Assembly: GCF_954871325.1 (NCBI RefSeq)
Contig: NC_088775.1
Location: forward strand, 88,699,561-88,763,560
Direction of reading: 5' to 3'
DNA length: 64,000 bases
DNA from: Gordionus sp. m RMFG-2023
Lineage: Eukaryota; Nematomorpha; Gordioida; Chordodea; Parachordodidae
The notes beneath the pieces are model-generated. The model did no database searches. It had not been told where the DNA came from and was given only the letters and a program-made list of their open reading frames with translations. A program made the translations under genes and the position numbers. Positions 4,263-52,836 of this stretch are shown here, in pieces; position 1 is the first letter of the stretch; every line of letters begins with the position of its first letter.

Positions 4263-4642
4263 ATGTCGTATGGGGATTCGGAATCTCTTGATTTTAAATC
4301 CTTTACCGAGGGCGATTTTAAACATTATAAAATCCGATTTAACCGGAAATGTAAATCAAGCATGTGTAGGGCATTTACCCTATAAATTTCAGCCAATTTT
4401 GTTATGAACTTTAGAACTACTTCTAATTTCGATTAATTTTTATATGTATTTTGCATATAAATTAAAAAATACTAAAATGTCTAAGGCTGAAATTGGCTGA
4501 AATTTATAGGGTAAATACTCTACACATGCTAGAATACATTTCCGGTTAAATCGGATTTTAAAATTTTTTAAATCGCCCTCAGTAAGGGATTTAAAATCAA
4601 AAAATTCCGAATCCCCACGAATTCCGAATCCCCATACGACAT
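4263..4642. repeat. Foldback MITE, ATGTCGTA ends (copy 2)
   Basis: This is a second, better preserved copy of the repeat at 2851-3210. It opens ATGTCGTATGGGGATTCGG and closes with CCGAATCCCCATACGACAT, a near-exact inverted pair. The short open frame across its left arm is repeat sequence, not a gene. Confidence 0.78.
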
Positions 4643-5019
4643 ATATATTATAATAAATTTACTTTTTTTAAAAAAAACAACCTTATTGTAGACATATATA
4701 TATATTAATAAATTTAAAATCTAACAATATATGGTTTTTGCAAATTAAAAAAGTTAATTATTTTCTTAGTGATAAATATTACGCTTATAGTCACTGATTT
4801 AAATGAATTAAAAATTGGATTTATCTTAAATGATGACCTTTTTCACTGTTGTGCGGTCCTATTAAGGTATTATTGTAATTCTTTCATCTTTCGGAATAAT
4901 AGGTCGAAATATTTATAAAATTACTCAAAATCCGATACTAGACTAACCATTCTATTATTTAATAATTAAGATGGATTCTATAAAATTATAAAAAGTAAAT
5001 TATCGGTAAACGATTTAAT
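4643..5019. other. AT-rich spacer
   Basis: No gene or recognisable repeat. Confidence 0.4.
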
Positions 5020-5630
5020 GATTATTAATTCTTCTTTATAGGGATATATTTTCTAATTTTTGGGCAAGAGGGTGTAAGTTTTAAAAGTTCGAACTAACAG
5101 GCTTAAGTACAAAACGAATTATTATATAAAGATACGATAGTATAATTTGATTTTGGGAAGGGTAAAATTACGTTTGTAATAGTAGTGGCACAAAATAGCT
5201 ACCATTTTAGATATAAAGTAATTAAAACGTAAATGACAAATAAAAAATTAACAAGTTTCTTAGCCATGGGAAAATAATAAATAGCCAAATAACGATTCCA
5301 AACTAATCAATATATAAAAGGGATCAAATAAAATTCTTCAATGATGTCTAACAAAATAAATATGGAAATAGAATTAACGAGATTTATAAGATGAAAAATA
5401 AGAATCAAATATACTAGAATGTATTTAATTTTATCTTTCATAGAGCAGTATAATCCCAAAGAAGAATTTCTGATTATACTTAGCATTAATATGATAAGGG
5501 CTAAATATTGGAAAAACTGTCCAACAACTTTAGTTTCATATTTTAAGCTCTTGTAAATGGTGCAATTAAGAGGCGAACTATTATTAAACATCTGAATATA
5601 GAAATCATTTAAGTGTCCACCGAATAATGT
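5020..5630 (-). pseudogene. Truncated and decayed paralogue of the GPCR at 8330-9706
   Basis: Read on the minus strand, the N-terminal half aligns closely with the intact receptor downstream. The shared parts are the extracellular NCT glycosylation site, QFFQYLA at the start of TM1, SLGLYC, and the TM2 region. DNA similarity continues past the end of the 94-residue frame (5307-5591) down to about 5020, covering the regions for TM3, the second intracellular loop and TM4, for example the shared block aaaagttcgaac. The frame is broken in several places, and the TM5-TM7 half is missing. This is an ordinary segmental duplicate of a host gene that has lost function. Its start codon region is also eroded. 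The limits are approximate because they come from alignment by eye. Confidence 0.78.
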
Positions 5631-5984
5631 AGGTTTTATGGTCTTGAATTCAACAAAATGTAATTCTATAATTTTAAAGTGTTATAAACTAATTTTTTTA
5701 ACACGTTCAATATAAAATAATCAATCTGATTGATAAATTATTTTTTTTAAAAAAATAAATTCTACTTATAACTGTTTAAAAAATGTCTAACAAATCATTA
5801 AATTATATACCTATATAAATATATATTATAAATAATTGACAAGGTAAAGGTTTTATCATTTTGAACATAAGAAAAGATTAATTTATATATAGATTTTTCT
5901 TATTATTTGTAATTGAATGTTTGATTAATTATGAAAGTGTTTCATTTTTTATAAATATTTTATAATAAAATAAACGCCTTTCCC
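5631..5984. other. AT-rich spacer
   Basis: Nothing recognised. Confidence 0.4.
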
Positions 5985-6190
5985 GTGCATTCATAGTTAG
6001 TGCAAATTAGCGGCGAAGTATATCAAAATACCCAAAGATGCAGCATATTCTGTACACTTCGCGATGAACTCGGGTTAATGGTGTATGCAGGGTAACCCCT
6101 CGTTCAAAGTTAGCGGAAATTAGCGGCGGGGAGTACAAAAATACAACGTATATTGTATTACTCTCCGCAAATTAGCGTTAACTATGAATG
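5985..6190. repeat. Short palindromic MITE-like repeat
   Basis: The ends are an inverted pair, CATTCATAGTTA on the left and TAACTATGAATG on the right. Inside, blocks reading aaattagcggcg and cgcaaattagcg occur in opposed orientation. It is GC-richer than its surroundings. A relative with ends CATTCACAGTAAG / CTTACTGTGAAGG lies near 35050-35125. Confidence 0.6.
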
Positions 6191-6834
6191 AGTGGGTTAG
6201 AAGCAAAATATTTTAATTATTAATTATCAAAAAAAGTAAAATGCATTGCTTTAGACAGTATTTTACTATAACTTTTTAAATTTTTTTTATTATACTAAAC
6301 TATATTGACACATTTATAATATATCAAGGCTAACCCGATAGCGTTTATATTTAACCAGAGTGAATAATTCATTCATAAAATGACCTTTTAAAGCATCTTT
6401 AAATACAAATCAGCTGCCAACACGTCATTTAGTTTCCAGTATAGATTATTTATTTATTTTTTATTGATACTTTGATTAGTTTTGATAAAATTTTAATGTA
6501 AATTATTGACACGAATTGATCGTCAGTTTAGGTAGTTATTATATATTATTTGGCCAATCATGTATTACACAAAACGTTGGCATAATTAGCAGAGCCCCTT
6601 TAAATCTTCTCAACTCAATAAAGCTAATCCCCACTCATCAACTGGTGAATAACGCCGCGGTGAGGTATTTAACGGTGCGTTATTTACAAAATCCCGTCAA
6701 TAAATAGGTATGCTATGATAAAATTTGAAAAATGTTTCAACGTATATTTCAAAAAATTAATATCCGCTGTGAAGTATCAGCTGTGATTTTGATAGCGTTA
6801 AATACAACATCACTTTAACAAATCGCGTTTACTC
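6191..6834. other. Spacer
   Basis: AT-rich DNA with a slightly GC-richer stretch at 6600-6720 containing a small inverted pair (gtgaataacgc / gcgttatttac). The 63-codon open frame here has no recognisable family and is not called a gene. Confidence 0.35.
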
Positions 6835-8329: not shown

Positions 8330-9706
8330 TCAACATCTACCAAATTTTTCTTGCATTTTATAACAAAATTTGCCGAACCATGATTTTTTTAAGACCCTAA
8401 TCACATCCTCTCGATAAGCAGGATTAAATATCATGTTGAGATAAAAGGTAAGGGATATATATGAATACTCCAACATGGTACAGCCAGCAAAGGCTATGTC
8501 GGATTCCCCGGTAGTCAATAGGTAATCAAAAAAGTCTACCGTGGTAAGGTAGATTGATACGGGAAATAAAAAAACTAAAAATTCAAGCATTAGTATAGCC
8601 AGCATTCTAATGCTTATCTTATATTCTAGCTCCCTCTGCATAATTTTACGTTGACCTTGGGAATCGGTTCTTGAAGGAATGTTGTTTATCAGCTTCGAAT
8701 CTTGAATAAATTTGGAATTGCAACCAACCCTAGAATTCTTACTCGGGATAATATTTGACGAATTTGTAATAGGGGCTACATTGTATTCCAATTTGGATGG
8801 TTCCGCAATCTGGAAAATGTTATCGCGGAGTTCATTCTTAATATTCCCGTCCACTACAGCAGAAATATTAGTTCCTCGAGCCATGTTAGAAATAGACGTT
8901 TCTGGTAAATTTGATACGCGGTGGCTCAATCGCCATCTGAGCTTTAATTTTTTGTGCTTGAGGGAGAAGAAGTTTAACACCAGAATTATTGCCACGGGTA
9001 TGAATCTCGTAAAGGTTTCTCTAAAGAACCCAAAGATAATCCATCTCGTTCTTTCCATCTTTGTGAAGGAAGCGAATATTCTGGTATAAATGATTTTAGT
9101 TTCTAATCCGCATACATTACTAAACTTTAAAAGTTCGAACCACCAGGCTGAAGGTATGTACCAAGCTAGGTAGTATAAAAAGCTTATCGCTAACATGATT
9201 TTGATTCTACGGAGAGTGATGAAACGTTTGTAATAATGGGGATACACTATAGCTATCATCTGGGATATGCCGAATATCACGTAAATGCCAAAGGCAAAAT
9301 TGAGAAGGGTTTTAGCCATAGAGAAGTGGTATTTAACCAAGTAGAGATTCCAAGGTAATTGATTTACAAAGTCGAGCAAATACGATTCACCGATCATGTC
9401 TAAAATCGGGTACAGTAACATGAAAACAGCATTGAAGAGATTTACCGCGTGGAAAACACGTGTCAGATACACTCGGATGTACATAACATTATCTTTCATG
9501 GCACAGTATAATCCCAAGGAATTTCCGATTATGCCTAGTGTTAGTATGATAGGGGCCAAATATTGGAAAAACTGCCTAACGACTCTAGTTTTGTATTTTA
9601 AATTCTCATTATAATGGGTACAATTAAGACCCGAACTGTTCAGCATCTGAATCTCGAAACTCTTCTGGGTATCCACCAAATCTTCCAAGTTAAATAATCG
9701 AGTCAT
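8330..9706 (-). CDS. Divergent rhodopsin-like G protein-coupled receptor, intronless
   Basis: A 458-residue seven-helix plasma-membrane receptor. By hydrophobicity the helices lie near residues 48-68, 82-104, 128-152, 168-190, 225-248, 365-387 and 407-429. N-glycosylation sites occur in the extracellular N-terminus (NSS, NCT near 23-30). TM1 carries the family GN (61-62). TM6 has a proline in FLVFLFP, and TM7 ends NMIFNPAY, a one-residue-short form of NPxxY. The usual E/DRY after TM3 is replaced by SQMIAIVYP, and I see no cysteine at the top of TM3 to pair with C199 in loop 2. The third intracellular loop is long (about 248-365) and polar. The layout resembles invertebrate peptide (FMRFamide-type) receptors, but the ligand cannot be inferred. 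The start was chosen at the ATG heading the full frame. A decayed paralogue lies 3 kb away on the same strand. Confidence 0.8.
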   Translation of the reverse strand: MTRLFNLEDLVDTQKSFEIQMLNSSGLNCTHYNENLKYKTRVVRQFFQYLAPIILTLGIIGNSLGLYCAMKDNVMYIRVYLTRVFHAVNLFNAVFMLLYPILDMIGESYLLDFVNQLPWNLYLVKYHFSMAKTLLNFAFGIYVIFGISQMIAIVYPHYYKRFITLRRIKIMLAISFLYYLAWYIPSAWWFELLKFSNVCGLETKIIYTRIFASFTKMERTRWIIFGFFRETFTRFIPVAIILVLNFFSLKHKKLKLRWRLSHRVSNLPETSISNMARGTNISAVVDGNIKNELRDNIFQIAEPSKLEYNVAPITNSSNIIPSKNSRVGCNSKFIQDSKLINNIPSRTDSQGQRKIMQRELEYKISIRMLAILMLEFLVFLFPVSIYLTTVDFFDYLLTTGESDIAFAGCTMLEYSYISLTFYLNMIFNPAYREDVIRVLKKSWFGKFCYKMQEKFGRC

Positions 9707-23202: not shown

Positions 23203-23757
23203 TTACCGAGTGGTATTCTTGATGCGTAAAAATCTATGTGATTTTGTCAGTAAATCACTCTGACATGTTTTGAGCACTTCATATCTTTTAACACCATTAA
23301 AATATACGTAAATTTCGTCTAATATTTCTAAGACATTTCGCAGCTCTTTTACTGATTGGCATAATTGAACAACTATTAAATTTAATCGATGACAATAGCA
23401 CCAAATAAAAGCTGCCTTTGGCGCCTCCACTCTAATCAAAGCCTGCACTCCATTAATTCTTCCACTCATGTTTGAGGCGCCATCATAGCTTTGCCCCACT
23501 AGGAATTCGAGGGGTAGATTCATGGAGCCAAGCTTGGATATTATATTCTTTTTAATATCGAGGCCCGTTGTATTTCCCGTACAATAAATGTCTATCAGCC
23601 TTTCAACGGGCTTAGGTGTCTCGCTATTTTCAACATATCTCACTATCAAAGCTATTGCTTCTGATTTCGATACATCATATGTGCCATCAACTATAATTGA
23701 ATTGCACCTGTTGAATACAATCTCCTTTTGAATTTTTTTTATAACCATATTTTTCAT
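23203..23757 (-). pseudogene. hAT transposase catalytic region (DUF4371-like)
   Basis: 184 codons on the minus strand. It contains DGTYDVSKSEAIAL (first catalytic aspartate), then VGQSYDGASNMSGR (second aspartate, the DGA block) and CYCHRLNLIV (zinc-binding C and H of the insertion domain). These motifs are typical of ZMYM1-like hAT transposases. Splicing or decay joins it to the other pieces; several breaks are needed to reach a full-length protein, so I regard it as inactive. Confidence 0.8.
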
Positions 23758-37132: not shown

Positions 37133-40039
37133 CAGGGATTCGAACCCGAACCCGGAGAAGTGAACCCGGGTTTTTAGAAAAAAACTCTGAACCCGAACCG
37201 AACCTGAACCCCATTTATAAAATTTTCAAAACCCCGAACCGAACCCAAGAATTTTATTTGAACCCGGGTTCAACCGGGTTCAGTGAATTATTTAAAATCA
37301 TATATTAATATATGTAAATACAAATATTATATTTTCAAATTTCCAATTAAATGAAGTGTTAATAAATTATAAACAACTTAATTCATTTATGCTATTTTTA
37401 AATTTATTCTCGATTCCTATTGGAGTGTTAAAAAATTTTAAACAATTGAATTAATTTACGCCATTTATTTTTAAATTTTTATCTTATTATTCTTAAAGAT
37501 TATTAATTAGAAAATGGTTAACAAATCAAAGTAAAAATTATTATATTGTTAATTTAAAAAATTCTAAACATCTAACTTAAAAATTGTTAAATGTAGGGCA
37601 GTTTTTGTGAACTTATTAAAATGATTTTAAAATTTATATATCATTTATTTTTGGTTCAGATTAATTTTTACAAGATATTAATGAAGTGCTTATTATAAAT
37701 GAAATTAAATTTATAAATATCTCTTTTTTAATTCTGAAATCATTGCTATTTATAAAAATTGTTCTCTTTTTATAGATTTAAGATTAAAGATATAGTCATA
37801 TTTGATAAGCATTTTACCCTTAATACAATAGAAAAAAAATCAATATGTTCATATTGCAAAGTAAAAATGTCTGGTAATCACTTGTCAAATTTAGAAAGAC
37901 ACCTGGAAAGAAATCACAACAATGAATATTTAAATGAAAAAACCAAATATCAGGAATTGTTTTTGGCAAAAAAACCTAAAATTAATATAGAAACCTTTTT
38001 TCCAAAAAAGCTTATAAGTATAAATATATCATCTAATGATTTGATGAGTTCTATACTAGAACTTGTTACTGTAAATGGCGGGCCTTTATCAATTATTGAA
38101 GATTCGGGATTTCAAAGAATTATAAATCCACTCCTTGCTGGGCTCAATTTAGTTATAAACAAAGAAAATTTATCCAGAACTATTAATAAAACAGCCCAAT
38201 CAATTAGAGACAAAATATCGAGAGAGGTAGAAGGAAAATTAATAAGTTTAAAAGTTGATGCAGTTCAACGACTAGATAGGTCAATTCTTGGTGTAAATAT
38301 TCAATTTATATCAAAGTCCATTATAAATTTGAGGACTCTTGGAATTGTAGAGCTGAAAGAGAGATGTACAGGAGAATATATAAAAGAGAATATATTAAAA
38401 ATTTTACTAAAATTTAAAATTAATATTGAACAAATATACACAATTACTTCTGATAATGGTTGTAATTTTTTAAGAGCTATAAAGCTCCTGCAACCTGAAA
38501 CTGATTATGATATAAGGAGTGAATCAGCAGATGAGGAAAATATGGATGTAAATGTATATAAATATGATATTGATGATATACAAAATACTTTTTTATCAAC
38601 TATTATATCCTATCCGATTTATAGTGTACGGTGTGCAGCTCACACACTTCAGCTGGCACTTCAAGATGCTATAAAATTATTACCTATTGTGGAAACCATT
38701 GCAAAAGCTAGGAGCCTAAATTTAAAATTAAGACATCCCACTTACCAAAAGTTATTAAAAAATATGAAACTCCCTAAGCCTGTGTTAGATTGCCACAGAT
38801 GGCATTCAACCCATGATATGTTAGAAAGGCTGATTTTACTAAAACCCAATATCGAAGATTTTTTTCAGAGCAATCTGATTATTTATTGACTGAAGATTGG
38901 AAAGAGTTAATAACGATTGTTGAAATTTTAAAACCGCTAAAAATCGCAACCAAACAATTCCAATCTGAACAGTTAACACTGACAGATTTTTATGCAGCAT
39001 GGTTAAGATGCTTCATCGAACTGGAAAAAAATCCAAACCATTTTGCTCAATTACTATATTCTTGTCTTAAGAACAGAGAAGAAAGGTTTATAAAGAACGA
39101 AATTCTCTTAGCTGCCATATAGCTGGACCCAAGATACAAGGTTAATTAAAAGCTTAGTAAATTAATTATTTTAGATTTATATTAAAATTGTTATTTTATG
39201 GAATATTTAAATATAAACAATATAAATCCTTAAATATTACAGGTATTACTAAGTGATGATGATAAGATTTGTGCGAAAAGGCATCTTGTCAATTTATGGA
39301 GACGAATTAAAAGCTTAACAACGCCGATTTTATCTGATGATATAAGTTCCGATGAAGTTATTGAACAAGAAGATGATTTAGAGAAATTGATACAACTTAA
39401 AGAAAGGCAGGAGAAAATACTTAAAAGAGGGCCAACGATTGCTGAGAAAAGTATTGAACAATAATTACTGGATTTAGCGATTATAAAAGATTAGATAAGA
39501 AGGAAAATATTTTGCATTTTGGGAGTCTGCTAAGCTGGAACACCCTGAATTATATATTTTATCTAAAATCTTATTTGCTGTTCCTGCAACCCAAGTTAAT
39601 TTATCATATTTTCACATATAAATACATTTAACATAGGTTAGCGTTGAAAGATCAATTTTCACATTTGAAATTCATTCTTTCACCACATAGATCGAGGATG
39701 AGTGAACAACTCTTGGAAGATATTATGCTAATACGTCTTAATAAAATTTTTAAAATTGATACATGACTATATGCTTTGTATTTTTAACTATATTTGCCTA
39801 TAAATAAAAAAAAAAATTTATTTTTTATATCAAATTTATGTCTAGTTTTTTATTATGATTTAAATATAGAATTTTTTTTATCAACTCAAAAATTCTTGAA
39901 CCCGAACCGAACCCGAACCAAACCCGGGTTCAAAAATATTTCCCTGAACCGAACCCGAACCGAACCCACCTTTTTTTTTATACCTTTAACCTAACCCGAA
40001 CCGAACCCGGGCAAAAATTTTGTCGGGTTCGCATCCCTG
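37133..40039 (+). mobile_element. hAT transposon, BED-finger transposase, GAACCC-rich ends
   Basis: 2907 bp with ends CAGGGATTCGAACCC / GGGTTCGCATCCCTG and an exact duplication gtttaaac (37125-37132, 40040-40047). Both subterminal regions are dense arrays of CCCGAACC or GGTTCGG words, probable transposase-binding sites. The transposase runs 37759-39475 on the plus strand, in pieces, with a dimerisation relic near 39520-39765. It is autonomous in layout but broken. Confidence 0.93.
37759..39122 (+). pseudogene. hAT transposase, N-terminal BED finger and catalytic core
   Basis: The first frame (37759-38889, 376 codons) contains a BED-type zinc finger: CSYCKVKMSG, then LERHLERNH (C2H2, about residues 31-54). 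It continues into the catalytic core with VDAVQRLDRSILGVNIQF, where the RNase H-fold aspartate follows LKVDA. Then come TSDNGCNFLRAI (second Asp) and RCAAHTLQLALQD (zinc-binding C/H). The frame ends early by a shift, and the protein resumes at 38886-39122 in another frame and again near 39241-39475. A late piece reads SKILFAVPATQV. At least two frameshifts or stops separate these parts. Confidence 0.85.
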
Positions 40040-41358: not shown

Positions 41359-41408
41359 ATCGCTTCTCGGCCTCTTGGCTAAGATCAAAGTGTAGTATCT
41401 GTTCTTAT
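41359..41408 (+). ncRNA. U2: U2 snRNA gene, 5' part (interrupted)
   Basis: The first 50 nt of U2 spliceosomal RNA, starting ATCGCTTCTCGG. It keeps stem I, the TAAGATCAAAGTGTAG stretch pairing with U6, and the branch-point recognition sequence GTAGTA at 41392-41397. The spelling ATCAAAGTGTAG is the arthropod-like form. The gene breaks after GTTCTTAT, where the retrotransposon begins. A TATA-like ctataaaaaa lies just upstream (41347-41356). Transcription from this start would now run into the retrotransposon. Confidence 0.95.
41397..41408 (+). repeat. Target-site duplication, left copy
   Basis: ATCTGTTCTTAT, native U2 sequence, repeated exactly at 46873-46884 on the far side of the retrotransposon. 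Confidence 0.93.
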
Positions 41409-41648
41409 AATTAAATTTACTTTAGATTAATATATTAAAATTAAAATTATTTTATTAAACTTATAAAACATTTTCTTCTTTTCAATTTTAAAACGCGATT
41501 AATATCCTACAGACTAGAGGCCATTTCTTATGGTAGTCTGCGCCGATCGTGACAATATTATCCACTGCGCAAGATCGCGGCCATTTTCTCTATAATTATA
41601 TGGCCTTATTGACGCCATTTCTTATTTTATTGAATATTCAACGTAAGT

Positions 41649-43505
41649 ATGCAACCAATTTTAATTGAAAACATTTTAATATATTATTTCCCCGCGCCCG
41701 ACCATTATAATTGCCCGGTGATTGGATGTGGCAAGGTATTTAGATGCCTTGAGTCGACAGCCCAGCGACACTCGTTGCTTAAACATCTGCGTCGTGATCA
41801 CCATCTTGAAATCGAAACGTCCAACATATGTTCAAGGTGTAACGCAGGTATAGGGGCATATCCATCTAAACACCGGTGCTCAGGACCCCCCGAAGTGGCG
41901 AGACCACCAACAACCTTCCTTTATGCGTGTGGAAGATGTAGCTGTTCTTTTCCTTCTACGAGAGGACTTAGAAACCACGTTCGTGCATGCAATCTTGCCC
42001 ACAGGCCTGACCCGATTTTAGCTTCAGTAGCAAGTCCGGAGGGAATGATCCATCCTATCCTAACTCCCGCCAGCCCGCTGGATATTTCTATACATCACCC
42101 CAATGAGAATCCACATTTGGCCTGGATTACTAACAGTGCCTCTCATAATACTAACCAACATGATGTAGTTATCCAGCAATCGATACCAACTCGTTCCGTG
42201 CAATGCCATTCAGCTCCCCGTATTATTGGATACCGGAGTCCGATGGCTAACATTGGCTCTCCCAATATATGGTCAACGAGACGTGCCGCCCAATCTTCCT
42301 GCACTCTCCCAACCCCATTGGTGTCCTCATGGTATCTTCAACCACGGGTTACATCACAGAACTCCGATACACGAGAACAATTGGTACTGCGCGGAGACTC
42401 CGATCAAACGACTCCCGTAATCGTAACTCGGGCCATAGCTCATCTTACTCCCCAGTCTACACCGATTAGAGCTAATTACGAGTCCGACTTTCCAGCATTG
42501 TCACCACCTCCAAGTCCGCTTCTCTCGGTGGCCATAACCCCCTCATCAGAGTTTCAAACTCCTTTATCGTACACCGGCCCAAGAATGGGTTACCGTACCC
42601 TAAGCTCCCCAGCACAAAGCAATACATTTGGAGCCCTCGCCTACTCGCCAAGTATCTCGCCTTCCCCACCAAGGCTAGTCATCGACGAGGAACCACCCTC
42701 AAGATCTTCCCCCACTTCCTGGCCATCTCATACACAAACTCAAATCCTGAGGCCAATTCATACCGATATTATACGTCAGAACCGTACTCAGCATCATTCC
42801 TTTGTGGCTTCTCGCTCGCCAATCCACGAATTCCAGTTTCCTCCATATCCAATTCAGCCTCGCATCATCGCACATCACCACCAACCTGCTCAACATCCTC
42901 AGGAGACGATCCAGCCTAATAGTTCTATTTCCGCTCAACTTCAACCTAATCCGCTCAATTCAGCCCGTACAAGAGTTCAACCTGATGCCCGCATGCGCCC
43001 CAGGCCCGACCAGCCTGTCCACCTCTTTCAACCAAATGCCCACGTTAGACGACCAGCACCCAGATCCCATCCACAAACCCATGTCGTCTCATCTCCCGTT
43101 CCAAATCGTATATTTAGACCCCCAATTCGTCGTACTTTCTTCCCGAACCATCAGTCCTATCGAACTAACTCGGGTGGTGCCATTCCAGTGCCCAGACCTC
43201 GTTCACATATTCATGGTCCCCCTCCGCCCACCTCAAATCCCATCACTAGGTCCCTAATTCGGCGGATTTTCTTCCCAAATCAGCCGTCCATTCAACTCAA
43301 CTTGGATGGTATCATTCCAGGAGCCAGACCTCGTCCACAAATCCATGGTCCCCCTGCGCCTGTCCAGAACCGCAGCACTAGGCCTCCCATTGGTCGTGTC
43401 TTCTTCCCGTATCATCCGTCCAATCGACCCAACTCGGAAGGTATCGTTCAGATCTCGTCCACAAATCCATGGTCCCCCTTCGCTTGCCCAGAATCGCAGC
43501 ACTAG
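41649..43505 (+). CDS. LINE protein, N-terminal part: zinc fingers and proline-rich repeats
   Basis: 618 codons from the first ATG. Three cysteine/histidine fingers occupy residues about 22-114: C22-x4-C27 with H45 and H51; C61-x2-C64 with H75 and C77; and C94-x2-C97 with H110 and C114. Such N-terminal fingers bind target DNA in R2-like elements, here presumably U2. The rest is proline-, serine- and histidine-rich and low in secondary structure. It ends in 44-residue tandem repeats (GRVFFP...SNRPNS.GI). The frame closes at 43505 because one repeat unit is 8 bp short. Before that change this frame and the next would have been one protein of roughly 1650 residues. Confidence 0.85.
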   Translation: MQPILIENILIYYFPAPDHYNCPVIGCGKVFRCLESTAQRHSLLKHLRRDHHLEIETSNICSRCNAGIGAYPSKHRCSGPPEVARPPTTFLYACGRCSCSFPSTRGLRNHVRACNLAHRPDPILASVASPEGMIHPILTPASPLDISIHHPNENPHLAWITNSASHNTNQHDVVIQQSIPTRSVQCHSAPRIIGYRSPMANIGSPNIWSTRRAAQSSCTLPTPLVSSWYLQPRVTSQNSDTREQLVLRGDSDQTTPVIVTRAIAHLTPQSTPIRANYESDFPALSPPPSPLLSVAITPSSEFQTPLSYTGPRMGYRTLSSPAQSNTFGALAYSPSISPSPPRLVIDEEPPSRSSPTSWPSHTQTQILRPIHTDIIRQNRTQHHSFVASRSPIHEFQFPPYPIQPRIIAHHHQPAQHPQETIQPNSSISAQLQPNPLNSARTRVQPDARMRPRPDQPVHLFQPNAHVRRPAPRSHPQTHVVSSPVPNRIFRPPIRRTFFPNHQSYRTNSGGAIPVPRPRSHIHGPPPPTSNPITRSLIRRIFFPNQPSIQLNLDGIIPGARPRPQIHGPPAPVQNRSTRPPIGRVFFPYHPSNRPNSEGIVQISSTNPWSPFACPESQH

Positions 43506-43700
43506 GCTTCCCACTGGTCGTGTCGTCTTCCCGAACTATCCGTCCAATCGACCCAACTCGGATGGTATCATTCCAGGAGCCAGAACTCGTCCACAAATCC
43601 ATGGTCCCTCTTCGCCTGCTCCGAATCGCAGCACTAGGCCTCCCATTGGTCGTGTCTTCTTCCCGACCCGTTCGTCCAATCGTCTCAACTCGGTCATTGG
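43100..43700 (+). repeat. 132-bp tandem repeat inside the LINE coding region
   Basis: The landmark tcgtccacaaatccatgg (or close variants) recurs at 43199, 43331, 43455 and 43587, spacings of 132, 124 and 132 bp. Each unit encodes 44 residues containing R-x-FFP and IHGP motifs. The 124-bp unit lacks 8 bp between ggtatcgttca and gatctcgtcc, relative to the ccaggagccagacc of its neighbours, which shifts the frame. Confidence 0.88.
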
Positions 43701-46590
43701 GATACCATTAGCTACGAACCAATATGAGGCGTTGAGTACCGATGATGACGTTGACGTGGTTGTATCCCAGGAGTCTACATCAACAAGGAGGGCAGCTCCA
43801 TCAACAAGGAGGGGAGCTCCATCAACAAGGAGTTCCATGCTAACACCGCGGGACACCACTCCGATGCTGCCATTTGTTGAGAGAATAGAGCGGTTCCTGA
43901 ATACACCTGCAGTAGAGGAAGACTGGACCTCGTTTACTGCGGTCATGGACGACTTGATCTCGACGGCCCACGAAATACTACGGATACGGCCTCGAGGTTG
44001 CAGAGTCCGGACACCTGGAAATGATAATGATAACACGGAGAATTCAGGTAATCCGGTGGACCGCAACAATATCGCTTGTGACGCGAAAGCAGTCCAAAAG
44101 CTTTACAACATTAACCGGAAAAGGGCAGTCCGCCATATTGTTGAAGGTTCCTCCCCTCGCTGTAATATAATCCGCGAGACCGTGCAAGCCCACTTCGAAT
44201 CAACAATCGGGATAGCAGCGAGCTGTGATACGTCAATCTACGGCATCCCGGAGATGGCATCACTGGAGATAACCAGCTTTACAGCGGAGGAAGTATCCCT
44301 CCAGTTACAGCGTGGCAACAACTCTGCTCCGGGTCCTGATCAACTGACCTTCAACAATTGGAGGAGACTTGACCCGCAGGCTACATTGTTAACCCACATC
44401 TTCAATGTATGCCTCAAGCATGGTAGGGTTCCTGACTCTTGGAAGCAGTCTGTGTCCGTGCTCATCCACAAGAAAGGTGATCAAGCAGATATCCTCAATT
44501 GGAGACCGATATCGTTAAACAACTGTATATACAAAACGTATACTGGTCTTCTAGCCAAGCGGATATCTACTCACGTGGATGATAACGGCCTTATCTCCAG
44601 AGGGCAGAAAGGGTTCATGCCCTATGATGGGGTCTTCGAGCATAACTTCGTGCTCCAAAACAATATATTGGAGGCGAGAAGATCGAAGAAGGAGTTGTGC
44701 GTGGCTTGGCTCGATTTAGCAAGCGCATTCAATTCCATACCCCATCTGGCGATGCTATCTGGTCTCAGGAGTGTTGGGGCTAATGAGCGTGTGGTTGACA
44801 TGGTGAAGGATCTATACAATGGGTCAAGAACTCGCTTCATCCTCAACAACGGGCTTACGGAGGAGATAACCTTCCACTCGGGCGTTAAGCAAGGATGTCC
44901 GCTCTCCGGCATCTTATTCAACATCGCCATAGATCCGCTACTGCGAAGGCAAGAGACTGATCCGATTGACTCTACCACTCTTGCATACGCAGACGATATT
45001 GTGTTATTGACGGGCTGCGCCGGAGATCTGCAGCGGAGACTCGATATCGTGGCTTCTGACTGCGAAAGAATTGGACTATCGCTAAATCCTGGAAAGTGCG
45101 CCGTTATGCATTTTAGTGGGCAAGCTCCAGTCGGGGTCCGCGAAAGCACCTTTAAAATCAATAGCGGTCGGCTCAGGTGCCTGAAAGAAGGTGAGTCAGA
45201 AGCCTTTCTGGGTAAACCAACAGGGTTCCTTTGTGATAAATATGATAATAATAACAGAACCTTGGAGATTACCCAGAAAATCAGCGGATCTAAGTTAGCC
45301 CCGTGGCAGAAGATAGACGCCATCAAAACGTTTGTCTTTCCCACGCTAAGCTTTCCAATGCGATGTGACCTCCTCGCGAAGACGGCCTGCGACAAGGTGG
45401 ACAAGGAGATTCGTATAATACTAAAGTCCTTATTAGCTCTTCCCCTATCTGCGGCTAACAACTACCTGTACGGGTCGCGGAAGTTAGGTGCTATCGGAAT
45501 CCCGCTGATGGCTGAGGATAGTGATATTTATCGGATCGACAACGCCTTCAAGCTTTTGACCTCAAAGGATCCCCTCGTCAAAGAGTTGGCCCTTGCAGAG
45601 CTTGGAGACACCGTCGCCAGTCGGACTGGAAAGCACCTGATGGATGTATCATCGGCTGACATCGCAGACTACCTATCTGGGGTAAATGATGAGCGCTTCA
45701 AAAACTCAGCAAACCCCTATAGGAATGCATGGACAAGGGCCCGTCAGGCTTCGTTGAGGCTCATAGTGAGGTGGAGGTTGGTTGATGGAGTTTTTACGTT
45801 GACAAAGGACGATTTTGTGCTGGATCCACATTGTCGTAGGTTGGTGGTAAAGCGATTGAGAGAGGCGATGAGGTCACAGAGGGACCGGGAACTTCGGGAG
45901 CTGAGGAACCAGGGCAAAGTCATGGAGTGTGTTGGTCAACACCCGGCGAGTCATTTCTTCCTCACGAGTGGACAATACACCTCATTTCGTGAATGGAGAT
46001 TTATACACCGGGCTAGACTCAACGAACTACCATTAAACGCGAGACCAGGCTGTTCAAGAGACCCGCGTTGTAGGAGGTGTGGACAATCAAACGAAACCCT
46101 CCCGCACGTCTTGAATCATTGCATGAGGTACTCGCGTTGGATGGTAGAACGCCACGACGCCGTCGTCGAACGACTTAAAACGACCGTAGCTGCAGAATTC
46201 TCAATTCTTGCGGAGAATCAAGTCGTCGACGATACACTCCTGAGACCGGACCTGGTGATAGCGAAAGGCAATCAAGCCTTTATAATCGACGTCACTATTC
46301 CCTTTGATAATCGCTTAGCTTCTTTGGACGCAGCTTACAACGAGAAGATAGCTAAGTATCAAGGGATAGTGCAGTTTCTGAAGCAAACTTACTCATCGGT
46401 AGATGTCGTGCCGATAGTGGTTGGGTCCCTGGGTTCCTGGTACGCAAAAAATGATTTCTTAATAAGGCGTATCTGTGCCAAGACCTACGGGAAGATGCTT
46501 CGGAAACTAATCGTCGCTGACGTCATTAAAGGATCTTGCAATCTCTATCATCAGTTTATTTCGGGGAGGATGAATGGTAGGAGGCAGTGA
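43306..46590 (+). CDS. LINE protein, C-terminal part: reverse transcriptase and restriction-like endonuclease
   Basis: 1094 codons; the true in-frame sequence begins near 43450, and the residues before that are an out-of-frame reading of the tandem repeat. The reverse transcriptase spans about residues 340-620: SAPGPDQLTF, WRPISLNNCIYK, AWLDLASAFNSIPH (first catalytic Asp), GVKQGCPLSGILFN, and YADD at 561-564 (44986-44997). A thumb-like region follows, then a CCHC knuckle CRRCGQSNETLPHVLNHC at about 922-939 (the H and final C are inside this span). The restriction-like endonuclease has PD at 981-982, D995 in FIIDVTIPFD, and a following K..KYQG. This order is diagnostic of R2, NeSL, R4 and Utopia-type elements. 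I see no Ulp1 protease and no upstream RNase H. The protein would nick U2 DNA and prime reverse transcription there. Confidence 0.93.
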   Translation: MVSFQEPDLVHKSMVPLRLSRTAALGLPLVVSSSRIIRPIDPTRKVSFRSRPQIHGPPSLAQNRSTRLPTGRVVFPNYPSNRPNSDGIIPGARTRPQIHGPSSPAPNRSTRPPIGRVFFPTRSSNRLNSVIGIPLATNQYEALSTDDDVDVVVSQESTSTRRAAPSTRRGAPSTRSSMLTPRDTTPMLPFVERIERFLNTPAVEEDWTSFTAVMDDLISTAHEILRIRPRGCRVRTPGNDNDNTENSGNPVDRNNIACDAKAVQKLYNINRKRAVRHIVEGSSPRCNIIRETVQAHFESTIGIAASCDTSIYGIPEMASLEITSFTAEEVSLQLQRGNNSAPGPDQLTFNNWRRLDPQATLLTHIFNVCLKHGRVPDSWKQSVSVLIHKKGDQADILNWRPISLNNCIYKTYTGLLAKRISTHVDDNGLISRGQKGFMPYDGVFEHNFVLQNNILEARRSKKELCVAWLDLASAFNSIPHLAMLSGLRSVGANERVVDMVKDLYNGSRTRFILNNGLTEEITFHSGVKQGCPLSGILFNIAIDPLLRRQETDPIDSTTLAYADDIVLLTGCAGDLQRRLDIVASDCERIGLSLNPGKCAVMHFSGQAPVGVRESTFKINSGRLRCLKEGESEAFLGKPTGFLCDKYDNNNRTLEITQKISGSKLAPWQKIDAIKTFVFPTLSFPMRCDLLAKTACDKVDKEIRIILKSLLALPLSAANNYLYGSRKLGAIGIPLMAEDSDIYRIDNAFKLLTSKDPLVKELALAELGDTVASRTGKHLMDVSSADIADYLSGVNDERFKNSANPYRNAWTRARQASLRLIVRWRLVDGVFTLTKDDFVLDPHCRRLVVKRLREAMRSQRDRELRELRNQGKVMECVGQHPASHFFLTSGQYTSFREWRFIHRARLNELPLNARPGCSRDPRCRRCGQSNETLPHVLNHCMRYSRWMVERHDAVVERLKTTVAAEFSILAENQVVDDTLLRPDLVIAKGNQAFIIDVTIPFDNRLASLDAAYNEKIAKYQGIVQFLKQTYSSVDVVPIVVGSLGSWYAKNDFLIRRICAKTYGKMLRKLIVADVIKGSCNLYHQFISGRMNGRRQ

Positions 46591-46872
46591 TTCAGACGAC
46601 ATCGCGTTTTTATTTATATTTATTTTTAATATCGCGCGTCTTATTGACTTCTCTACTTTTATATCGCGTTTAATTATATTCGTCTTTATAATATCGCTTA
46701 CTTTGCTATTCCATTTTCGCTGGTATTCTTTTTTTATATAGAACATATATATATATATATCGCTTATCATATTACATCGCATGTATTACATATGTTTATT
46801 ATCATATATCATATCATTGAAAATGCTATTTGGAATATTTTTTTTTAACATATCTTTTTTTTAAAATAAATA

Positions 46873-46884
46873 ATCTGTTCTTAT
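46873..46884 (+). repeat. Target-site duplication, right copy
   Basis: ATCTGTTCTTAT, an exact match to 41397-41408. It rejoins U2 sequence in register. Confidence 0.93.
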
Positions 46885-47025
46885 CAGCTTAATCTCTGGT
46901 ACGTCCCCTAATGGGGACCAGTATATTAAACTCATTTTTCGATATTTTGGGGAGGTGCTCTGGGCTTGCCTATCCCTCTCCTAAGGGTCAACCTAGTATT
47001 GCAGTATATCTAGGAGTGGCCCAAA
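46885..47025 (+). ncRNA. U2: U2 snRNA gene, 3' part (interrupted)
   Basis: This continues U2 exactly where the 5' part stops: CAGCTTAAT (stem IIa), GTCCCCTAATGGGGAC (a perfect stem IIb), and CATTTTTCGA (Sm site position). Stem III has GGGCTTGCC in its loop. Stem IV is CCTAG...CTAGG around TATTGCAGTA, the loop bound by U2B''. Both parts together give 191 nt, the normal U2 length, with stems preserved by paired changes. The Sm site reads ATTTTTCG where the usual form is ATTTTTGG. The 3' end near GGCCCAAAC is inferred by comparison. An AAAAAAGATAATTTAGA stretch after it could serve as a 3' box. Confidence 0.93.
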
Positions 47026-48554
47026 CTATTAAAAAAGATAATTTAGAATTATTATAAATAGATAAATTTAATGTTCTCTACAACAAAAACATTCAAACTT
47101 CATTTGGTAAACATCTTTATTTTCCCCTCATTAATCACATCTTTAATTTCCCCTCATTAATCTGATAGTAATTTTTAAAATATTTATCCCCAAAAAGCAT
47201 TTTAATTTTTTAAAATAAATTAACACATTATCCTTATTAATCTATTTGTTTAATTGTCACCAGTACCACCATGTGTTAAAATATTTGTTTTGTTTGTAAT
47301 CAAATCTTAAATATCATTATTGAAATATGAATTTATAGAAAATTTCTTATAATTTTATTTTGCTTCTGTATTTAAAAACTGCTAAATAATAATTTAAAAT
47401 GATATTATAATTTAAAGTTTAAATAATATTAATAATATTATACTGATTTATAATGATTTCAAATTTAATATTTTTTTAAGTTTTACATGATACTTTAATT
47501 TTAACATGATATTGTAATTTTGAAATTTAAATTATATTCTGCAGATATAAGATGTATTTTAAATTTTTTAAGTTGAAATTATATATATGGTGAAATGATT
47601 GATAGCTAACTTAATATTTTAATAAAAATCAATACTGATATATTTCTAGCAGTCTCAAAAAATCAAACTTTTAATTTATCATTATTTTTTAAAGACACAT
47701 TTATAAAAAAGTCCTCTAATTTAAGAAGACATAGATTTTAAATTTTTTAATCACTATTTAACTATTTAATTTTCAAGTCTTACATGTATTTATTTGAATT
47801 CATATTAATTTACTACATAGCTTGGATTATTGAGTTAATATTTTAAAGGGGGTTTTGCAGGAGTAGATAGAAGCTTAGTCCTTATTCTTCAAATATAATG
47901 TATTTAATTATCAGTGTGTTTTTAACAGTTTATTTTTAAAAATTATATAACACATTAATTTAAAAACACATTTATTATATTTTAAATATTATTTTTGAAA
48001 ATTGATAAAAAATATCCAACGCTACACTTTTCCTCTTAGATTTATTTTTATTTGTTTTTGTTTTAAGATTTTCATTATTTGTGACTGCATATTAATATTT
48101 TTTTGATTAAAAAAAGCAATTGTTTTAAATATGAAATCAATAAAAATAGTAAATTACATGTTTTTTTATATTATATTTTTTTAACACATAATTTAAAATG
48201 AAAGTTTAAAATAATAAAAATAAAATTTTTTAAAATTAAAAAAAAAGAAGTTTGAAACCTGAACCCTAAATTTTAAAAAAGGGTTTGGTTTCGGCGAAAT
48301 ATCGAGGGTTCGGGTTCTCGTCCCTGATATTTAGATTAACCGAACGATATTCGGTAAAAAAAATAAAGGGGAACGAGGATCAATTTTTACTTTCCTTTAC
48401 TATTCCTGCCAATTTTCCGTTCCATGTTTCGAAAACATTTTCTGGAAGAATATCTAAAATGTAGCGATAAAAGTAACAAGTTGCTTTTTTAAGATACGTT
48501 AAATATTTACATTATCTTTCATTTAATATTTTTATAATTATAATTTCTAAAATT

Positions 48555-51297: not shown

Positions 51298-52836
51298 TTA
51301 TTTTTTTATCAAAAAATGTCCGTAGCGATTGTGTGCCATTAATGCTTTAGTCCAATATGATTTTATTTTTTCTCTATTACCGTCATTTTCGGAAAAAAAA
51401 ATATATTTCATTTTGTGGGTTAAGTATTGATCACGCCCAAAACTAAATGGTTTAGCCGTATAAAATTCGTCAAATTTACTTTCAAGGTTAAACCCATCGC
51501 CTACGTCTATCATAAGAGTACCGGCCATTCTTGCCAATCTACCTGTTACGTGAGCATCATCCACTTTGTAATATGGGCGGGCAAAATAGGCCTTGTGTAT
51601 TTTGTAGGCGGTAGGCGGAGTCAATATCATAATCCACCCAGAACAATAAGGTTCATAAAAAATCCCCGGGTATTCATTTGGAGTGGTATGCCATTTGCCT
51701 CCATCTCGTAAAACTCTCTCGTTAATCTGAACGCGGCATAATATAATGTCCCTTATGCGTCCTTTACTCCCAAATAATTTTCTATATTCTGTGGAAATGT
51801 ACTGATCCGTATCAAACATAGTGTAAGGCCTTTCATCACAACTCGTGTAACCCTGAGTAGTACTATTCTGAGTGGCATTTGTAATGGTGAGTGACGTGGT
51901 TACTCGATCGATCAAGTTTTCCCGAAGCTTAAAACCCTTAATTATATAACCAAAGCTTTCAATAGGTAAAGCGCGAGTTCGATTATAGAGGTATGGCAGC
52001 AATCTTTCTTTCGGTCTAATTTTATCTATATCGCGAATCAAATACGAGCTGTATATTTCATCAAAGTATCGTAACGTAGTGATGACCTGTAAAATATCTG
52101 CAAAAATATCGTCGTCCATTTTGAGAACGAATTTAGCCTGAGGACAATAATATGATATCCATTTAAAACCCATCGAGATCTTGTAAGTCATATTAACGTA
52201 GGCATCTATGAATGAAGCTTGAACAATATCCTCGTACATTTTACTCTCGTTAGTTAGTTTGGCCTGAATCGTTTCATTTGCAGCGATGCCTAACATAAAT
52301 ATGAGACGAATACTATAATTCTGGTATTCCTTAACAGAACCCCATGTTTCCCGTATTGATTCTCTTAAATTGACGTTGCTTGGAGCACTGTGAATCATTA
52401 TAATGATAAATATGTCTTTAGGTACATTAACTTTTATTGGCGCGAGTGGGTCGCTTTTATTCGTCACATCTTGCATACACATGTGTTTCGGGTTAATCAA
52501 ATATTTGAAATCCTGGGGTAAGTCTTTCCGTGATACATTTTTTTCTAAGAAAAATCCGTTTAATACATTGTAATTCGATTTCAGCATCTTTAAACATTCT
52601 TGATCTTGCAATGTAAGTTTAGAATGATTCCGGCCAACTGTCAACATTATTTGATTTGAAGATTGTTTTGACTTATTTTTTCCAATCGATATGCTACGCT
52701 TAAATGTACGTTCTAAGATGGGGGATATCATTATTATATAAAATACCACAAGACATGAACAAGGCATCAAACATATAATAATTTTTTTCGATCTCATGTC
52801 GAAAGAAAATAATATAGCAAAATGTTGATTCCTCAA
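51298..52836 (-). CDS. GT31-family beta-1,3-galactosyltransferase-like type II membrane protein
   Basis: 512 residues on the minus strand. A short cytosolic tail, one membrane anchor (about 18-41) and a lumenal catalytic domain fit a Golgi enzyme that adds galactose or GlcNAc to glycans from a UDP-sugar. Family motifs in order: RESIRETWGS (158-167), IRLIFMLG (176-183), YEDIVQASFIDAYVNMTYK (201-219), KMDDDIF (239-245) with the metal-binding DDD, YPGIFYEPYCSGW (389-401) and VDDAHVTG (425-432). Several NxS/T glycosylation sites are present. Between the DDD block and the YP..YCSG block lie about 145 residues, longer than in typical vertebrate B3GALTs. Met14 starts just before the anchor (MRSKKII) and may be the real start. 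The acceptor and exact linkage cannot be inferred. The gene is intronless. Confidence 0.85.
   Translation of the reverse strand: MRNQHFAILFSFDMRSKKIIICLMPCSCLVVFYIIMISPILERTFKRSISIGKNKSKQSSNQIMLTVGRNHSKLTLQDQECLKMLKSNYNVLNGFFLEKNVSRKDLPQDFKYLINPKHMCMQDVTNKSDPLAPIKVNVPKDIFIIIMIHSAPSNVNLRESIRETWGSVKEYQNYSIRLIFMLGIAANETIQAKLTNESKMYEDIVQASFIDAYVNMTYKISMGFKWISYYCPQAKFVLKMDDDIFADILQVITTLRYFDEIYSSYLIRDIDKIRPKERLLPYLYNRTRALPIESFGYIIKGFKLRENLIDRVTTSLTITNATQNSTTQGYTSCDERPYTMFDTDQYISTEYRKLFGSKGRIRDIILCRVQINERVLRDGGKWHTTPNEYPGIFYEPYCSGWIMILTPPTAYKIHKAYFARPYYKVDDAHVTGRLARMAGTLMIDVGDGFNLESKFDEFYTAKPFSFGRDQYLTHKMKYIFFSENDGNREKIKSYWTKALMAHNRYGHFLIKK

Follow-up and report, generated by a model that had tools for sequence, protein, structure and literature searches.

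How does a U2 small nuclear RNA (snRNA) gene come to be split in two by a long interspersed nuclear element (LINE), and to which lineage does such an element belong? The question is raised by the window, i.e. the whole stretch of 64,000 nucleotides analysed here, which lies on contig C1 of the 287-Mb genome of the hairworm Gordionus sp. m RMFG-2023 (Nematomorpha). Within it, a LINE of 5,465 bp (41409-46873, + strand) interrupts a U2 snRNA gene, which resumes in register at 46874. We are confident that this nematomorph LINE represents a new Utopia family, and we propose a mechanism by which it would target U2. The parts of the split gene are as follows.

41359-41408, +: 5' half of the interrupted U2 gene, nucleotides (nt) 1-50 in worm numbering and 1-49 in human numbering (RF00004; the same in intact copies)
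41397-41408, +: target duplication, left-hand copy, ATCTGTTCTTAT (sequence match)
41409-46873, +: Utopia-type LINE, 5,465 bp, its last A being common to element and target
46873-46884, +: target duplication, right-hand copy, ATCTGTTCTTAT (sequence match)
46874-47029, +: 3' half of the interrupted U2 gene, which starts again at nt 39 (human numbering; RF00004)

Both halves are recognised by the Rfam model RF00004 (41359-41464, 62.9 bits; 46850-47029, 112.3 bits; gathering score 46). An empty paralogue of the locus is provided by the U2 gene at C1:89090528-89090845, which is 97% identical to the left flank and 98% to the right, and these two matches overlap by exactly the 12 bp of the duplicated target. 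Thus, the halves and the empty paralogue bear out the initial annotation, which had U2 split after nt 50 and resuming in register. A chance split of U2 is disfavoured because the empty paralogue matches both flanks, and not because of a motif count: the 15-mer TCTGTTCTTATCAGC, with up to 2 mismatches allowed, occurs once, at 46874, and at least once in 9 of 100 shuffles. The first A of ATCTGTTCTTAT may be the element's own, in which case the duplication in the window is 11 rather than 12 bp long. Relative to human U2, the worm U2 has one extra A, human nt 39 being worm nt 40.

The element itself is organised as follows.

41409-41648, +: 5' leader upstream of the long frame's first ATG
41649-43505, +: first open frame, 618 residues, with zinc fingers and a proline-rich linker
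41712-41801, +: zinc finger 1 (C22 C27 H46 H51), ligands invariant in 18 rows; predicted local distance difference test (pLDDT) of the model above 90
41829-41879, +: zinc finger 2 (C61 C64 H75 C77), ligands invariant in 18 rows; structure model
41928-41990, +: zinc finger 3 (C94 C97 H110, C114), from alignment and model; weak C2H2 match below the Pfam cut-off
43120-43693, +: 132-bp (44-codon) tandem repeat, 4.4 copies, within the linker; the frame changes inside the repeat
43306-46590, +: second open frame, 1,094 residues, with reverse transcriptase (RT), CCHC finger and restriction-like endonuclease (RLE)
44464-45135, +: RT domain (RVT_1 in Pfam, 4.6e-33; RT tree)
44986-44997, +: YADD catalytic motif, ADD invariant in 32 rows
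46069-46122, +: CCHC finger upstream of the endonuclease, C780, H792 and C797 invariant and C783 in at least 90% of 32 rows
46243-46356, +: RLE motif (R)PD..D..K..K, with P839, D840, D853, K872 and K875 invariant in 32 rows
46591-46873, +: 3' untranslated region (UTR), five genome matches, itself included

The initial annotation had spoken of one continuous reading frame. Instead, the frame of the window copy is broken, 41649-43505 lying in one frame and 43306-46590 in another with the switch inside the tandem repeat, and an unbroken ATG-to-stop frame is absent from every family copy examined. The zinc fingers, the RT with its YADD motif and the PD..D..K endonuclease read there from the letters alone do hold up: RVT_1 is matched, the finger ligands are conserved, and the PD..D..K residues align with those of R2 nucleases. 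Zinc finger 3 of the window element has C114 where at least 90% of rows in the 18-row alignment have H. In a sequence search of the PDB, R2 was the top match (7.7e-65) and LINE-1 ORF2 was far weaker; Foldseek, run with the protein model (pLDDT 86.5, predicted template modelling score 0.84), also returned R2 first (E 9e-45 to 6e-30), LINE-1 scoring 2e-22 or weaker. Myb, Ulp1-like protease and APE domains gave no Pfam match at E ≤1 in the element's two frames. The RLE region weakly resembles the viral L-protein N-terminal domain PF15518 (E 0.078 for the element and 7.2e-5 for protein P0028, both below the family cut-off), a likeness that perhaps reflects a common PD..D..K nuclease core.

Utopia elements are described as having their U2 3' junction at nt 39, an RT, an RLE, one to three N-terminal fingers and a C-terminal finger (PMC4640811). 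The Gordionus element shares the U2 target, the nt 39 junction and the finger-RT-finger-RLE order, the last spread over two frames in the window copy, as well as tandem insertions and the presence of split alongside intact U2 genes (PMC4640811). PMC13188248 gives the absence of Myb as a further mark of Utopia, with which the two frames agree. To place the element by its RT, a tree of 47 rows was computed from 43 of the 120 homologues listed out of 320, the protein of locus L009 and three R2s, of which only the R2s bear clade labels, the relatives being unlabelled even where they come from published Utopia hosts. The worm element groups with 19 arthropod rows (spiders, ticks, aphids, springtail, crayfish, plant bug) and 5 others with support of 100/98, its exact sister row being weakly supported (87/40), and the remaining 19 rows (turtles, ants, wasp, beetle, scorpion, nematodes, locust, others) form one set (88/81). 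By species names only, published Utopia hosts fall in both parts, Acyrthosiphon (A. pisum) and Ixodes in the element's half and Pelodiscus, Camponotus and Dendroctonus in the other (PMC4640811). A 100/100 branch splits the element and its relatives from the three R2s; the RT phylogeny suggested in the initial annotation therefore sets the element apart from R2, the only labelled clade in the comparison.

The U2 site, the domain order, the RLE residues and the RT tree are the reasons for assigning the element to Utopia, and together they support the earlier idea of a Utopia-type element, perhaps of a new family, in an invertebrate host. It is probably a new family within the lineage: an ordinary Utopia by site and, likely, by mechanism, but new by family and phylum. 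Nematomorpha do not appear in the 2015 table of Utopia hosts (Table 1 of PMC4640811), and no report of Utopia in this phylum was found among the matches listed in open-licence literature. The element would thus add a phylum to a very widespread target-specific LINE lineage.

The grouping with arthropod rather than nematode rows (100/98) also fits horizontal transfer of the element from an arthropod host into a hairworm, hairworms being parasites of arthropods (PMC10380579). We nevertheless regard such a transfer as unlikely. The best identity is just 47% and the end branch is 1.13, so that any transfer must be very old, and two ancient paralogous lineages account equally well for a tree in which Gordionus is the sole nematomorph.

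Is the site a fixed target of the family? An Rfam search of the genome for U2 gave 19 matches: 8 intact genes, 10 halves making up 5 split genes, and one match below the cut-off. All counts of U2 genes and element copies are lower bounds, 46 of 33,096 candidates having been scored in this search and 20 candidates in an earlier one of the genome. The split genes are those in the window, in L023 (same family), in L009 (an array), in L015 (one copy of a non-coding element of about 488 bp) and in L014 (an old, rearranged insert). As the initial annotation had suggested checking, other genomic copies do lie at the same U2 base: U2 from nt 39 (human numbering) follows all 12 readable element 3' ends, a count that leaves out L011, L012 and L024, whose copies have no 3' end. 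The 12 differ in detail. One shortened 488-bp copy is joined to U2 within its own tail, U2 after the L014 3' end carries substitutions, an old L010 copy is followed by no more of U2 than TCTGTT, and in L009 TCTGTTCT is retained between the first 488-bp copy and the next element.

At the 5' side, 20 bp of U2 are retained at 8 of 10 readable junctions, 5 of which come from the L009 array and are perhaps not independent of one another; the window retains 11 bp and a 5'-truncated copy in L009 retains 8. Depending on how it is read, the L023 duplication is as long as 22 bp. In L014, unmatched sequence and, beyond it, inverted Utopia pieces come after the 20 bp (with one substitution), and this junction therefore reveals the length of the target without the usual beginning of an element. 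Hence, the exact 12-bp U2 copies first noted at the flanks are present in the window, but 12 bp is ruled out as the rule of the family. The window also has AATTAAA at its 5' junction in place of the CAGCTTAATG of L023, which, given an overall substitution divergence of 1.9%, would reflect a separate joining event and not decay. The 20-bp duplications set the Gordionus family apart from arthropod Utopia families, reported to make none, and provide a protostome case of a length previously reported for reptiles (PMC4640811); top-strand cutting can therefore be compared within one lineage.

Common sites could also be inherited. The U2 genes at C1:87-89 Mb have common diverged flanks, i.e. their loci are duplicates, and a single ancestral insertion carried along by locus duplication would give the same base in each. 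A comparison of the window element with that of L023 gives 101 differences over 5,372 sites and 17 indels; their identity by BLAST, with gaps counted, is 96.0%, little above the 93.2% of their upstream flanks (1,035 bp), and coding constraint could slow the elements. Several results nonetheless make this very unlikely. The downstream flanks are only 80.6% alike (774 bp, BLAST). The flanks of the empty gene L017 are about equally close to both loci (90.5% and 85.1% to the window; 93.0% and 88.3% to L023), and an ancestral insertion would require its precise loss there. The 5' junctions of the window and L023 are unlike each other, and a different element sits at the same base in L009 and L015. 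Since the elements are closer than their flanks and the empty L017 is equally close, insertion appears to postdate locus duplication, and we conclude from these comparisons of flanks and junctions that the same U2 base has been struck more than once. Copying has also been recent, as the window and L009 elements differ at just 13 of 3,478 sites.

Old Utopia copies often form inverted pairs, as seen in L010 (centres 1234 and 5754), L011 (about 1447), L012 (1437) and L014. The arms are 75-83% alike in L010 and L011 and 98.8% in L012, and because they overlap in element coordinates in these three loci, simple twin priming does not explain them. Both arms of the first pair in L010 finish outward in U2 remnants. 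In L012, the Gordionus protein P0004 fuses a PF01135 methyltransferase part to Utopia RT fragments; its Utopia part matches contig C4 at 98.9-100% identity over 92, 249 and 132 residues, and the fusion is probably an annotation error.

Could another RLE element, such as R2 or NeSL, have arrived at U2 independently? The closest solved structures by sequence are R2s and the relatives in the tree carry no Utopia label, but we hold this to be highly improbable: the 100/100 branch separates the element and its relatives from R2, Myb and Ulp1 matches are absent at the threshold given above, and the insertion site is the published Utopia 3' junction. The modelled RT-RLE core resembles the fold of the R2Bm, R2Tg and R2Pm structures and the fingers weakly resemble the N-terminal fingers of vertebrate R2s, whereas R2 targets 28S ribosomal DNA and the Gordionus element has U2 on both sides and no Myb match. 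NeSL in turn targets the spliced-leader exon and has an Ulp1-like protease. A Keno-type element (Tx1 clade) can be dismissed, for although the Keno 3' flank is published as the same U2 site (PMC4640811), Keno has an apurinic-like endonuclease, whereas the Gordionus element has conserved RLE residues, no APE match and a LINE-1 ORF2 match far weaker than that to R2.

For the Utopia element, the following mechanism can be proposed. Firstly, the element protein would bind the U2 gene, with its three N-terminal fingers taking part. The PD..D..K nuclease would then nick the bottom strand before U2 nt 39, the position of the 3' junctions, and by analogy with R2, the RT would copy element RNA from the nick by target-primed reverse transcription. 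The top strand would usually be cut after nt 58, giving the 20-bp duplication read at the junctions. Insertions may then stack within one U2 gene, as the L009 array suggests, which is possible because the duplication leaves upstream U2 sequence beside a fresh site. The same machinery probably also copies the 488-bp element in trans. Site-specific LINEs of the Utopia kind are useful for targeted gene insertion.

The 488-bp element, a short companion at the same site that distinguishes Gordionus from published Utopia systems, is present in six copies in two U2 genes, both outside the window.

L009:559-1046, 4551-5703 and 5724-6719: five copies in the array
L015: one copy

The six copies are 97.3-99.6% alike, with one pair at 95.0%, and all six start with G directly after 20 bp of U2. 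No protein domain is assigned to the element, and the longest frame listed has 119 residues and occurs in one copy only; visual inspection shows an internal unit of some 35 bp whose number differs among copies. Genome searching found one further piece, 152 bp on contig C2 (L031:1501-1652; C2:27273027-27273178), 100% identical and lying between G runs in an AT-rich region. The idea that the element derives from the window family by internal deletion was rejected, with respect to that family: over the first 348 nt the score is 22, compared with a mean of 23.6 for shuffles. Its last 140 nt, however, show a likeness to the Utopia 3' UTR that spans 63 columns (window, p 0.004; L023, p 0.002; 3' end of L014, p 0.076, not significant), and it is probably a freeloader on the Utopia protein.

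The element opens with 11 nt that are perfectly complementary to U2 nt 6-16, a match noticed after the fact with a chance of about 185 in 4^11. The natural junction of U2 and the 488-bp element folds into a long stem (z -2.26, 3 of 200 shuffles as good), whereas the fold of the L023 Utopia junction is unremarkable (z -0.78, 38 of 200). No ribozyme was recognised at the 5' ends, an Rfam search of L009, L015 and L023 at E ≤5 giving U2 matches only; a simple scan for a hepatitis delta virus (HDV)-type first stem found none in the 488-bp element and, in L023, one unconvincing stem right before the start codon. A tentative reading, which we consider possible but doubtful, is that of a U2-specialised non-autonomous retroelement that would be co-transcribed from the snRNA promoter, fold its 11 nt back onto U2 nt 6-16, so that its 5' end is defined or uncovered independently of any known ribozyme, and be copied in trans through its Utopia-like 3' tail. 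If so, it would be, to our knowledge, the first known such parasite of an snRNA-gene-targeting LINE; no U2-targeted non-autonomous retroelement was found among the matches listed in open-licence literature. R2 SIDEs are comparable: they too are short and non-autonomous, sit at the site of the element that likely serves as their autonomous partner, and perhaps need the transcript of the target gene (PMC3414825). The R2 type joins the 5' and 3' ends of its partner through an internal deletion and has a self-cleaving ribozyme at its 5' end, whereas the body of the 488-bp element has no match to the window family and no recognised ribozyme. Gordionus, in which at least 8 U2 genes are intact and at least 5 are split, copies are recent and a freeloader occupies the same site, offers a compact system for studying how LINEs persist in low-copy essential genes.

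Elsewhere in the window, an open frame of 458 residues (8330-9706, -) has the look of a seven-helix receptor by eye, with no Pfam match at E ≤0.01. Open frames at 37759-38889 (+) and 23203-23757 (-), with a BED finger and DUF4371 match, are perhaps relics of hAT-like transposons. A single-frame galactosyltransferase-like gene (PF01762, 4.1e-34) lies at 51298-52836 (-).
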